In this document: in pieces, positions 1,499 to 42,861 of the stretch
Numbering within the stretch: the first letter of the stretch is position 1
Layout of the letters: each line of letters opens with the position of its first letter
From: Nitrosopumilaceae archaeon
GTDB taxonomy: Archaea > Thermoproteota > Nitrososphaeria > Nitrososphaerales > Nitrosopumilaceae
NCBI GenBank assembly: GCA_900620265.3
Contig: UYNY03000028.1
Coordinates: 1 to 42,897, forward strand
Direction of reading: 5' to 3'
Length of the DNA: 42,897 bases
The notes under the pieces: generated by a model
What the model was told of the DNA's origin: nothing
What the model saw: only the letters and a program-made list of their open reading frames with translations
Databases searched by the model: none
Program-made: the position numbers and the translations under genes

Positions 1499-1728
1499 CC
1501 GCAGTCGACGTGCTCTATCCGGTCCCCGCACCTCCCGTTAAAGTCGGCTATCCGCTCGTCAAGCAGGTAACAGTCCTCGGGGTCGAGCGACTCGTGGCCG
1601 TCGGCGGATCCGGATATCAGGATCCCCTCGATGCCGCACGTGCCGCCGGGGTAGGCGGCCAGCAGCACCGCCGCGCATGCGCCGGTGAGCGCCAGCACGG
1701 CGCGCGGGCTAGGAGCTTGATATGTCAA
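1495..1728 (-). CDS. Small secreted Cys-containing protein, function unknown
   Basis: This 77-codon frame has a short N-terminus, a hydrophobic stretch (AVLALTGACAAVLLAAYPGG) that looks like a signal peptide or lipoprotein-type leader, and a mature part with five further features of note: Cys at GTCGIEG, DCYLL, GRCGD and VDCG, an acidic composition and no second membrane segment. It starts at a TTG inside the last 20 nt of the upstream Alba-like gene on the same strand, so translational coupling is plausible. The start is uncertain. I do not recognise a family. The paired cysteines would fit a disulfide-bonded extracytoplasmic peptide. Confidence 0.5.
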   Translation of the reverse strand: MTYQAPSPRAVLALTGACAAVLLAAYPGGTCGIEGILISGSADGHESLDPEDCYLLDERIADFNGRCGDRIEHVDCG

Positions 1729-2521
1729 TCTCGATCGCCGACGTCCATCCGTGGCCCCCGTCCATCCGCGGCACGGAGTACGTGCGCACGCCGGACACCG
1801 CGTACCCGATGCCGGACATGCGCCGCAGCATCATCTGCGAGATGTCCACCGCCTTCGTGATGTCCCTGTCAGTGCCGCGCAGCGTGACGGTCCCAGACTC
1901 GGATATGGCGTCAAGCGCCTCCTTTATCGTCTGGGACGGGCTCTTGCCGCGCCCCACCACCAGCGGCCCGCCGTCGGGCGCCCTGTCGGGGGATCCGTCG
2001 CGGCCGGACGGTGGATCGTCATGTGGATCATCCCGTGGATCACCACGTGGATCGGTTGGCGCGTCACACCGCGGGTCATCCTGCGGGTCGTCATGCGGAT
2101 CGTCATGTGGATCGTCATGCGGATCACCAGCAGGCCCGCCGCCGGCCCCGTCCGCGGGTGGCTCGGGGACCGGGCACTCTGTGTGATCCGGGACGCCGGG
2201 ATCAGACCCCCGCTCCGAGAGGATGTCCTCGGCGTCGCTGGGCGCTTCCAACTCGGAGAGCGGCACGCCGCCCCCGCCTTTATCTTTGTCCCCCAGCCCG
2301 CGCACGTACTCCTCCAGGACCGCCTCCAGGTCGTCGCCGCAGGTGCGTATCCTCTCCACCAGGTCGGCGTCCTCTATCTCGTAGCAGTTGTAGAGGCCCT
2401 CGGAGTCCTTGAAGAGGAGGACGGCCTTGTCCCCGTGTATGCAGTGGTAGAGCTTCTCCTCCTCCATCATCTCGGGCCGGAGCTTGACGCCTTCCGCGTC
2501 GGACGTGACGGGCGGATCCAT
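1709..2521 (-). CDS. Alba-like nucleic-acid-binding protein with acidic repeat linker
   Basis: This 270-residue protein has three parts. Residues about 1-85 form a compact acidic N-terminal region (YHCIHGDKAVLLFKDSEGLY and a VEEY-type helix) of unknown family. Residues about 90-185 are a low-complexity linker dominated by DDPH/DDPR/GDP repeats. Residues about 190-270 resemble an Alba-type domain (TIKEALDAISESGTVTLRG, then DITKAVDISQMMLRR and strands SGVRTYSVPR and AIEIDI), with the helix-strand order of archaeal Alba. Alba proteins bind DNA or RNA. A TATA box at 2542-2550 lies about 26 nt before the ATG at 2521. The Alba call is moderate because the match is to a pattern, not an alignment. 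Confidence 0.6.
   Translation of the reverse strand: MDPPVTSDAEGVKLRPEMMEEEKLYHCIHGDKAVLLFKDSEGLYNCYEIEDADLVERIRTCGDDLEAVLEEYVRGLGDKDKGGGGVPLSELEAPSDAEDILSERGSDPGVPDHTECPVPEPPADGAGGGPAGDPHDDPHDDPHDDPQDDPRCDAPTDPRGDPRDDPHDDPPSGRDGSPDRAPDGGPLVVGRGKSPSQTIKEALDAISESGTVTLRGTDRDITKAVDISQMMLRRMSGIGYAVSGVRTYSVPRMDGGHGWTSAIEIDISSS
2011..2127. repeat. Imperfect 12-bp tandem repeat encoding the DDPH linker
   Basis: Units of the type GTGGATCGTCAT (plus strand) recur about ten times with drift (ATGCGGATCGTC, CCGTGGATCACC, CTGCGGGTCGTC). Read on the minus strand they give Asp-Asp-Pro-His/Arg/Gln repeats. The 12-bp period keeps the frame, so copy-number changes would alter linker length without breaking the gene. 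There are no spacers, so it is not a CRISPR array. Confidence 0.85.
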
Positions 2522-2713: not shown

Positions 2714-3802
2714 GTGAGGGCCGTCATGCATGTCGACTTTGACTATTTCTACGCCCAGTGCGAGGAGATCCGCAGGCCGGAGCTCCGGACGAGGCCCGTC
2801 TGCGTCTGCGTCTACTCTGGCAGGGGCGGGGACAGCGGGGCCGTCGCCACGGCAAACTATGCGGCAAGGGAGTACGGGGCAAAGTCCGGCATGCCGATAA
2901 CACTTGCAAAGAGGAGCCTCGCGGGCAGGGACGACGCGGAGTTCCTCCGGGTCGACTTTGGGCACTACGAGGAGGTGTCGGCGGCCGCCATGTCGATCAT
3001 CAGGGGGTTTGCAGACACGTTCGAGTACGTGGGCCGGGACGAGGCGTACCTCGACGTTACCGGCAGGACGGGGGCAGACTTTGGCAGGGCGTCCCACCTG
3101 GCGCAGCAGCTGAAGAACGCGCTCCGTTCAAGGATGCAGCTGAGCTGCTCCGTCGGCGTCTCGCCCAACAGGCTGCTCTCAAAGATCGCGTCGGACTACA
3201 AAAAGCCCGACGGGCTCACCGTCGTGCGCCCAAGGGAGGTGGAAAAGTTCCTCGGCCCGCTGCCGATCCGCGACGTGCCGGGCATCGGGGGGCGCACCGA
3301 GGAGCGCCTGGCATCCGAGGGGGTGGCCACGATGGAGGACCTGCGCCGCCTCGACATATTCAGGCTGCAGCAGATGTTCGGGAGGAAGACGGGCACGTAC
3401 CTGCACAACGCCGCAAAGGGGGAGGACGAGACGCCGGTATCCGAGTCGAGCTCGCGCGCCCAGTACAGCAGGCTCTCCACCCTGAGCAGGGACTCGACGG
3501 ACATCGGGTTCCTGCGGCCCCACCTTGCCGAGATGTGCAGGGACGTCCACGGCTCGGCCGTCGCAGACTCGGTCATGTTCAGGTCGGTCGGCATACACAT
3601 CATACAGTCCGACCTGTCGGCCCGCACGAGGTCGAGGATGCTCCGCGCCCCCACGCAGAGCCTCACGGAGCTCGAGAGGTGCGCCGAGGCCCTGCTCGAG
3701 GAGGCGCTCGAGACTCAGGAGTCGGGAATACGCCGCCTCGGCGTCAGGGTGGCCGACCTCTCGGAGATGGCCGGCCAGAGCGACATCACGAGCTATTTCT
3801 AG
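2714..3802 (+). CDS. dinB: Y-family DNA polymerase IV (Dpo4/DinB type)
   Basis: This 362-residue translesion polymerase extends primers past damaged template bases. The palm begins HVDFDYFYAQ (catalytic Asp8), the steric and fingers region includes SGAVATANYAAREYG, and the second acidic cluster is GRDEAYLD (Asp109, Glu110), where most family members have S-I/V-DEA. A helix-hairpin-helix thumb (VPGIGGRTEERLASEGV) and a little-finger domain follow. The last eight residues, QSDITSYF, form a PCNA-interacting (PIP-box) motif. The length matches the archaeal Dpo4 family. GTG 2714 is supported by the TATA box at 2681-2693; ATG 2726 is a possible alternative. The 3' end overlaps the archaeosortase-like gene by 17 nt. 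Confidence 0.95.
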   Translation: MRAVMHVDFDYFYAQCEEIRRPELRTRPVCVCVYSGRGGDSGAVATANYAAREYGAKSGMPITLAKRSLAGRDDAEFLRVDFGHYEEVSAAAMSIIRGFADTFEYVGRDEAYLDVTGRTGADFGRASHLAQQLKNALRSRMQLSCSVGVSPNRLLSKIASDYKKPDGLTVVRPREVEKFLGPLPIRDVPGIGGRTEERLASEGVATMEDLRRLDIFRLQQMFGRKTGTYLHNAAKGEDETPVSESSSRAQYSRLSTLSRDSTDIGFLRPHLAEMCRDVHGSAVADSVMFRSVGIHIIQSDLSARTRSRMLRAPTQSLTELERCAEALLEEALETQESGIRRLGVRVADLSEMAGQSDITSYF

Positions 3803-42467: not shown

Positions 42468-42513
42468 GCCTCCGCACAAGCGTTAAATGAGAACGCCGCC
42501 CGCGCGGGCAGGG

Positions 42514-42861
42514 TTGGCAGACGGCTTTGAGGAGAGGGTGAGCGAGGGCATCAGGGCGCTGCGGGAGGAGGTCAGGCTGCTGCGGTCACGGGGCGCCGCG
42601 GGGCGGGCGCCAAGGCCCGCGGGGGCCGCCAGAAGGAAGGCGGGCCGCGCCGGGGCCTCCAAGAAGGGGGCGGCCGCACGGCCGGGCTCCAAGGGGGCGC
42701 CAAGGGCCGGGCGTGCAGGGGCGGCCAGGAAGAGGGCGGCCGCGCGGCCGGGCGCCGGGCGTGCGCCAAGGCCCGCGGGGGCCGCCAGAAGGAAGGCGGG
42801 CCGCGCAGGGGCGGCCGGGAAGAGGGCGGCCGGCGGGGGCCGCGCCAAGAGGCGCCTCTAA
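42514..42861 (+). CDS. Basic Ala/Arg/Lys/Gly-rich repeat protein, nucleic-acid-binding-like
   Basis: The 115-residue product starts with a short amphipathic helix (ADGFEERVSEGIRALREEVRLL) followed by about 90 residues almost only of Ala, Arg, Gly, Lys and Pro, with repeated units such as PRPAGAARRKAGRAGA and KRAAARPG. The composition is like histone H1 tails or bacterial/archaeal DNA-compacting proteins; binding to nucleic acid is inference. I chose TTG 42514, about 28 nt after the TATA-like GTTAAATG (42481-42488); ATG 42487 is in frame but would overlap that box. The tail is encoded by perfect DNA repeats. Confidence 0.55.
   Translation: MADGFEERVSEGIRALREEVRLLRSRGAAGRAPRPAGAARRKAGRAGASKKGAAARPGSKGAPRAGRAGAARKRAAARPGAGRAPRPAGAARRKAGRAGAAGKRAAGGGRAKRRL
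42607..42650 (+). repeat. 44-bp direct repeat, copy A
   Basis: This segment is identical over 44 bp to 42763-42806. It begins GCGCCAAGGCCCGCGG and ends GGCGGGCCGCGC. It encodes one PRPAGAARRKAGRA unit of the basic tail. Confidence 0.85.
42763..42806 (+). repeat. 44-bp direct repeat, copy B
   Basis: This is the second identical copy of the 44-bp unit, in the same reading frame, 156 bp after copy A. Identity at third codon positions points to recent duplication or gene conversion. Confidence 0.85.

Follow-up and report, generated by a model that had tools for sequence, protein, structure and literature searches.

The window analysed here, a stretch of 42,897 nucleotides with a GC content of 0.67, comes from a 2.0 Mb genome in 113 contigs (G000) that is placed among Nitrosopumilus-type archaea, the nearest locus by its DinB gene being L112 of Nitrosopumilus sp. 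H13 (67.6% identity, GC 0.53). Close to the start of the window lies an ORF that encodes an Alba domain behind an acidic 12-bp-repeat linker and an acidic N-terminal domain, which confirms the architecture put forward in the original prediction (Table 1). The stop-to-stop open frame of this fused ORF (278 aa) is uninterrupted, and the whole protein carries a net charge of -35 with a pI of 4.3. As an Alba it is unusual in being fused, in being acidic overall and in having an in-frame repeat as the link between its domains. Third-position GC is 0.91 in the A part and 0.89 in the Alba part of the same frame; seven intervals taken from other genes give 0.87-0.92, and the adjacent gene C gives 0.83. 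Since both parts resemble the other genes tested, the fused gene does not have the look of an old pseudogene.

The fused ORF has neighbours on both sides. Gene C, the third gene of the cluster, gave no family match above cut-off, and an ORF of the same kind (with a C...DCG end, as captured by one regular expression) directly follows Alba in 36 of 43 related loci. On the other side, the divergent DinB gene has matches (tblastn) in 102 of 139 loci, several of them from the same genomes, and in 12 of the 23 outgroup stretches described below; the position of this DinB-type, translesion-type polymerase next to A and Alba appears to be a long-kept neighbourhood. At the far end of the window, a 124-aa Lys/Arg/Ala-rich ORF (42487-42861, forward strand) with repeats of about 30 and about 66 bp resembles a basic H1-like tail.

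Table 1. Features of the A-Alba locus in the window (positions in nucleotides of the window)
Feature	Position	Strand	Description
Fused ORF, 270 aa	1709..2521	-	domain A, DAEDILSE motif, acidic repeat linker and divergent Alba domain; single open frame
Domain A (aa 1-80)	2282..2521	-	net charge -13; a separate gene in relatives, ending 77-97 aa after the start of the match
Codon 81 (AAA, Lys)	2279..2281	-	about where gene A of relatives has its stop codon (position judged by eye)
Acidic linker (aa 81-186)	1964..2281	-	net charge -23; 23 Pro, 24 Asp, 5 His
DAEDILSE motif (aa 96-103)	2213..2236	-	start of the tailed-Alba gene in relatives; homologous start codon (aa 88) is CTC here
In-frame 12-bp tandem repeats (aa 133-172)	2006..2125	-	ten DPxD-type tetrads
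Alba domain (aa 187-270)	1712..1963	-	divergent; GKSP for GxKP, LRGTDRD for IKARGKR; helix motif AVDxSQM kept
Gene C, 77 aa	1495..1728	-	TTG start (chosen by the analyst); hydrophobic N-terminus, ..LDPEDC...VDCG end; third gene of the cluster
DinB/Y-family DNA polymerase gene (named by sequence reading)	2714..3802	+	divergent neighbour of the A-Alba unit

The A-Alba gene pair and its fusion

Domain A is predicted by AlphaFold2 to fold confidently on its own (pLDDT 88.2), as five strands followed by two helices. No match above cut-off was found for it in Pfam or NCBIfam, and nothing of note in the PDB. The best leads from Foldseek (a topoisomerase IB piece, E 0.2) and from VIA (a tailspike piece, Z 4.4 over 42 residues) were uninformative, as were PUR-type matches (Z 2.5-3.0 at more than 6 Å), while an SSL6-like lead (E 0.03-0.07) and a MraZ lead obtained with two outgroup A proteins (E 0.012-0.018) did not reach the cut-offs and were dropped.

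An initial protein search of relatives matched the two halves of the ORF to separate, adjacent places. With the whole window protein as query, no relative was recovered in a search of genome contigs, and relatives were then sought with an alignment of the N-terminal part (gene A), which gave 133 related stretches in named genomes, 80 of which were examined. The two domains were modelled separately, since MAFFT aligned Alba rows with A in a joint full-length alignment. Of 250 genomes of the class, 177 were found to have a single gene A, among them members of the window's family as well as of other families in the same order. In a phylum-wide sample of 151 genomes it is present in 23, every one of these being in the window's own family. 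It is a separate small ORF with its own stop in all 80 named loci, and an Alba lies within 1.8 kb of its start in each of the 43 loci having at least 1,500 nt after A. At locus L138, neither an Alba, in the 419 nt between A and the contig end, nor the DAEDILSE motif was found.

Outgroup loci from other families of the order were represented by 23 stretches, namely all six with A matched in the first protein search plus 17 more whose A position was given among the matches listed. In all of them A stands directly before a short Alba of the GKKP type on the same strand (ORF of 95-135 aa; 80-540 nt from domain to domain), and in none does this Alba have the acidic tail of the DAEDILSE-type genes. 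That A precedes a short untailed Alba throughout the outgroups indicates that the A-Alba pair is ancestral and that the tail was added later. The window has the A-Alba gene pair of this class, Alba coming directly after A in the same orientation (as in 43/43 and 23/23 comparison loci), here as one ORF. From these comparisons, the pairing of A with Alba appears to be old and the tail more recent, and the fusion was seen once.

The tailed Alba genes of loci L063-L142, which mostly carry Nitrosopumilus and Nitrosarchaeum titles and are orthologues by position, resemble the window in their locus, with A upstream, a DAEDILSE-type motif, an acidic tail and an Alba. They differ from it in that A and Alba are two genes, the Alba residues are intact and the repeats are PEPEPT, PEPEPQLxSP and others instead of DPxD. 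These relatives are presumed from their names to be ammonia oxidisers. The original prediction of an unknown acidic domain fused in front of Alba is supported on the fusion and the acidity but incomplete, since relatives normally encode this domain in a gene of its own ahead of Alba, and the linker represents the Alba gene's tail. An old two-gene unit, made of a small clade-specific A and an Alba, reads as a single protein in the source genome.

Around the junction, the DAEDILSE-type motif was found by pattern in 68 of the 80 loci. Of the remaining 12, six have near-variants (L112, L130, L132, L136, L139 and L142), five stop short of the motif or break off inside it (L067, L069, L073, L077 and L078) and the last is L138. 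Among the 70 loci counted, the codon eight positions ahead of the motif is TTG in 57 and ATG in 6; no start codon stands just there in the remaining seven, one of which (L132) is a case of a misplaced motif. An AGGA-like sequence precedes that start in many loci. Given these starts and the AGGA-like sequences, it is unlikely that relatives link A to Alba by programmed frameshifting. A reading of DAEDILSEF as a PIP-box was dropped, there being no Q and no aromatic pair.

In the matches listed for 95 genomes belonging to the genus, G000 alone is matched over both parts with no intervening stop, and no second genome with an A-Alba fusion was found among the relatives' matches examined. Genome G008, listed with A inside an open frame of 278 aa, was ruled out as a second case by a TAA after A and an N run in the tail. 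The restriction of the fusion to one genome, the separate A and Alba genes in all 80 named loci and the fragmentation of the source assembly would all fit an artefact, in which A and Alba are really separate and have been joined by a single miscounted base in the G-rich junction; moreover, another reading frame has a stop at about aa 80, where A of the relatives ends, beside G-runs, and a GTG shortly after it. However, such an error is unlikely, as the window ORF is uninterrupted, the codon homologous to the Alba start is CTC, and in L112, the nearest relative, A and Alba already share a reading frame and are separated by only one stop, so that the loss of one stop would be enough to produce a genuine fusion.

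The acidic repeat tail

Two period-12 arrays lie in frame within the linker of the window protein (2011-2053, score 58; 2071-2126, score 56). The real window holds nine arrays scoring at least 56 (some overlapping, and both linker arrays included) against a mean of 0.18 and a maximum of 2 in 100 trials of first-order Markov resampling. Read in register from aa 133, the tetrads are DPHD three times, then DPQD, DPRC, DAPT, DPRG, DPRD, DPHD and DPPS. The DDPH tandem repeat described earlier therefore exists as in-frame arrays of period 12, yet DDPH is only the commonest of several units in it.

The Alba gene of Nitrosopumilus- and Nitrosarchaeum-type relatives carries a DAEDILSE-type motif followed by an acidic, usually Pro-rich and mostly tandem-repeat tail that changes its copy number in frame. 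Complete tails were obtained from 33 of the 43 loci with Alba, the other 10 having been dropped for N runs, a broken frame or another motif. These tails measure 33-187 aa from motif to Alba, and all 33 are negatively charged (net charge -9 to -47, median -16). The same DNA read in its other two frames gives peptides that are net positive (medians +3 and +12), which indicates that acidity is held at the protein level while the repeat units turn over. The units themselves differ between loci and include PEPEPT, PEPT, PEPEPQLxSP, PEPVAEPT, AEP/EEP, DTSSDTAP and DPxD, and a tandem array is detected by TRF in 29 of the 33 complete tails, the exceptions being L084, L113, L118 and L140.

Copy numbers, counted by eye, change between close relatives. 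A 9-aa unit is present in one, three and four copies in L113, L115 and L119, respectively, loci whose Alba domains are identical and whose A and Alba DNA is 95.5-97.6% identical, and an 8-aa unit is present in three copies in L074 and seven in L076. The proposal that the repeat is able to vary in length without frameshift is thus borne out in relatives, where the copy-number comparison suggested with it finds both the repeats and the variation in length. Sequence ends are also distributed unevenly around A, falling within 700 nt after it in 37 of 80 loci and within 700 nt before it in 1 of 80; in 30 of those 37 loci the frame was followed to the end, mostly into repeats. This clustering would be expected if assemblers fail there. 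In three loci (L093, L097 and L137) the tailed-Alba frame is broken inside the repeats without any N, by error or by real slippage.

The linker had also been described as His-rich and potentially metal-binding. A metal-binding (His/Asp) stretch, or a metal sensor, would be consistent with the DDPH units of the window linker, with the 1 to 8 His present in 17 of the 33 complete tails and with L114, L116 and L128, in which the homologous acidic tail contains His/Cys-rich stretches (HTHG..HTCADDSC.CC type; HTHGDDHTCADDSCACC type) with the look of metal-binding sites. But the His place of the window repeat is filled by Gln, Arg or Pro as well as His, and 16 of the 33 complete tails have no His at all, so that metal binding as the function of the linker is very improbable. 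By eye, the His of the relatives' tails are mostly outside the repeat units.

The divergent Alba domain and a second Alba

The C-terminal part of the window protein matches Pfam PF01918 over aa 188-237 with 29.7 bits, or 33.1 bits when aa 186-270 are used alone (curated cut-off 25). Scores with the more specific models are 13.5-17.3 bits for the NCBIfam AlbA subfamily (cut-off 90) and 14.9 for TIGR00285 (cut-off 88.25). With aa 182-270 and 39 relatives as input, AlphaFold2 predicts a1, b2, a2, b3 and b4 at moderate confidence (pLDDT 72.4), which corresponds to the Alba fold b1-a1-b2-a2-b3-b4 except for strand b1, which is not resolved in the model. In a Foldseek comparison with the PDB, the first 24 rows are all Alba-family chains (best E 2.3e-4); we take entries 8xap, 3wbm and 1vm0 to be such chains, the others being identified by title or paper. 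With VIA, the top Alba-type chain superposes over 80 residues at 2.8 Å and has a Z of 7.3. This value is shared by other Albas and, at 7.2, by one designed protein, and ribosomal proteins score above 6. Profile match and predicted fold thus agree with the Alba-like domain foreseen in the original prediction, which had proposed structure prediction as the check, and on this footing the domain is a real but divergent Alba.

What the domain shares with the archaeal Alba (Sac10b) family is the profile match above cut-off, the fold and the residues of the dimer helix. In other respects it departs from a canonical archaeal Alba, which is a small basic protein of about 90 aa with GxKP and ARG(K/R) basic loops, whereas the window protein has 270 aa, is acidic, carries a fused partner domain and has other residues in place of both loops. 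Both GxKP and ARG are present in all 43 relatives and the window, with GKSP and GTDR, is the only one of the 44 to have neither; GxKP belonged to the pattern used to find the Albas, yet no eligible locus failed on it. The charge of the Alba domain alone is +1 in the window against +3 to +8 in the 43 relatives. From our own alignment, the equivalent of Gly43 (Sulfolobus numbering) is presumably Asp in the window. Gly43 is described as shared by all Albas, with a part in RNA binding (PMC11621453).

Divergence is concentrated in this part of the protein. In local alignments of the window with 38 relatives, Alba has a median identity of 39.8%, A one of 54.5% and DinB one of 57.9%, whereas among the relatives themselves (200 pairs) the medians are 85.1, 64.6 and 74.2%, respectively. 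The ranks are reversed, the Alba part passing from the most to the least conserved of the three. The corresponding identities for L112, also from local alignments, are 62.4% (Alba), 61.0% (A) and 65.1% (DinB). Eighteen columns are invariant across 40 rows including the window, and nine of these belong to I..AVDxSQM..RM. The retained helix AVDxSQM..RM falls where the dimer interface lies, and it is in this interface that Alba proteins generally are reported to be most conserved (PMC11621453). The window Alba has lost the basic-loop residues kept by all 43 relatives and has retained the dimer helix.

The only other Alba found in the source genome is on contig C63 (L149, 1392-1979, forward strand). 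It keeps the basic loops (GTKP, IKARG), and its N-terminal tail is acidic (net charge -7) and contains SQDRGQDT units encoded by a tandem repeat of 24 bp (TRF score 118). Repeat tails are present on both Alba genes found in this genome. The existence of a second Alba with intact loops allows for decay, in which the fused copy would have lost its role and now drifts, and the loss of residues kept by all 43 relatives and the fast divergence of the Alba part fit such a course. Against this, the ORF is full-length, third-position GC is normal in both domains, and the dimer helix is kept together with the invariant residues of domain A, all of which makes decay distinctly unlikely.

A possible role for the fused protein

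The best explanation overall, to which we give about even chances of being right, is that the fused protein is an Alba derivative serving, in tethered form, as an adaptor or as one subunit of a heterodimer, while its tail provides spacing and tunes electrostatics. Because A and Alba are conserved neighbours, including in the outgroups, and have been fused once, they may act in the same complex, where they would be candidates for direct contact. The tail could form a stretched, negatively charged and length-adjustable spacer that holds A and Alba apart, and could at the same time compete with DNA or RNA and so weaken non-specific contact with nucleic acid. Both roles are suggested by the position of a long acidic Pro-rich stretch beside a basic nucleic-acid domain, an arrangement also found in relatives with an intact Alba. 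The earlier suggestion that the acidic linker may keep the Alba domain off DNA is plausible as judged from the sequence.

The loss of the basic loops and the retention of the dimer helix suggest that the window protein would not be a bulk chromatin protein and would instead be an Alba2-like subunit or an adaptor. Through the dimer helix it would pair with an intact Alba, probably the one on C63, and as an adaptor it would bring domain A and the acidic tail to Alba-coated DNA or RNA. Alba2, the heterodimerising Alba paralogue of Sulfolobus and Aeropyrum, offers a parallel in that the window protein is likewise a divergent second Alba beside a more canonical one. However, Alba2 has about 90-100 aa and no fused domain, unlike the window protein. 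Alba2 is described as occurring solely in heterodimeric form when Alba1 is present (PMC3585288).

In the open-licence literature searched, no title or abstract was found on the A-Alba gene pair or on the tail, and little on the chromatin of ammonia-oxidising archaea. One passage on an ammonia-oxidiser-type genome gives only the number of its Alba genes (PMC3043068). More tentatively, it is possible that ammonia-oxidising-type archaea encode a dedicated Alba partner protein of unassigned structure, that Nitrosopumilus-type lineages then gained an acidic repeat tail, hypervariable and tunable in length, which would regulate binding to chromatin or RNA, and that in the window lineage the partner, the tail and an Alba stripped of its contacts have become one adaptor that docks on other Albas. 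The presence of A before Alba in every locus with enough sequence makes A a strong candidate partner in chromatin or RNA binding that has gone unrecognised, and the change of tail length by repeat number between close relatives would provide a direct test of whether disordered tails tune archaeal chromatin proteins.
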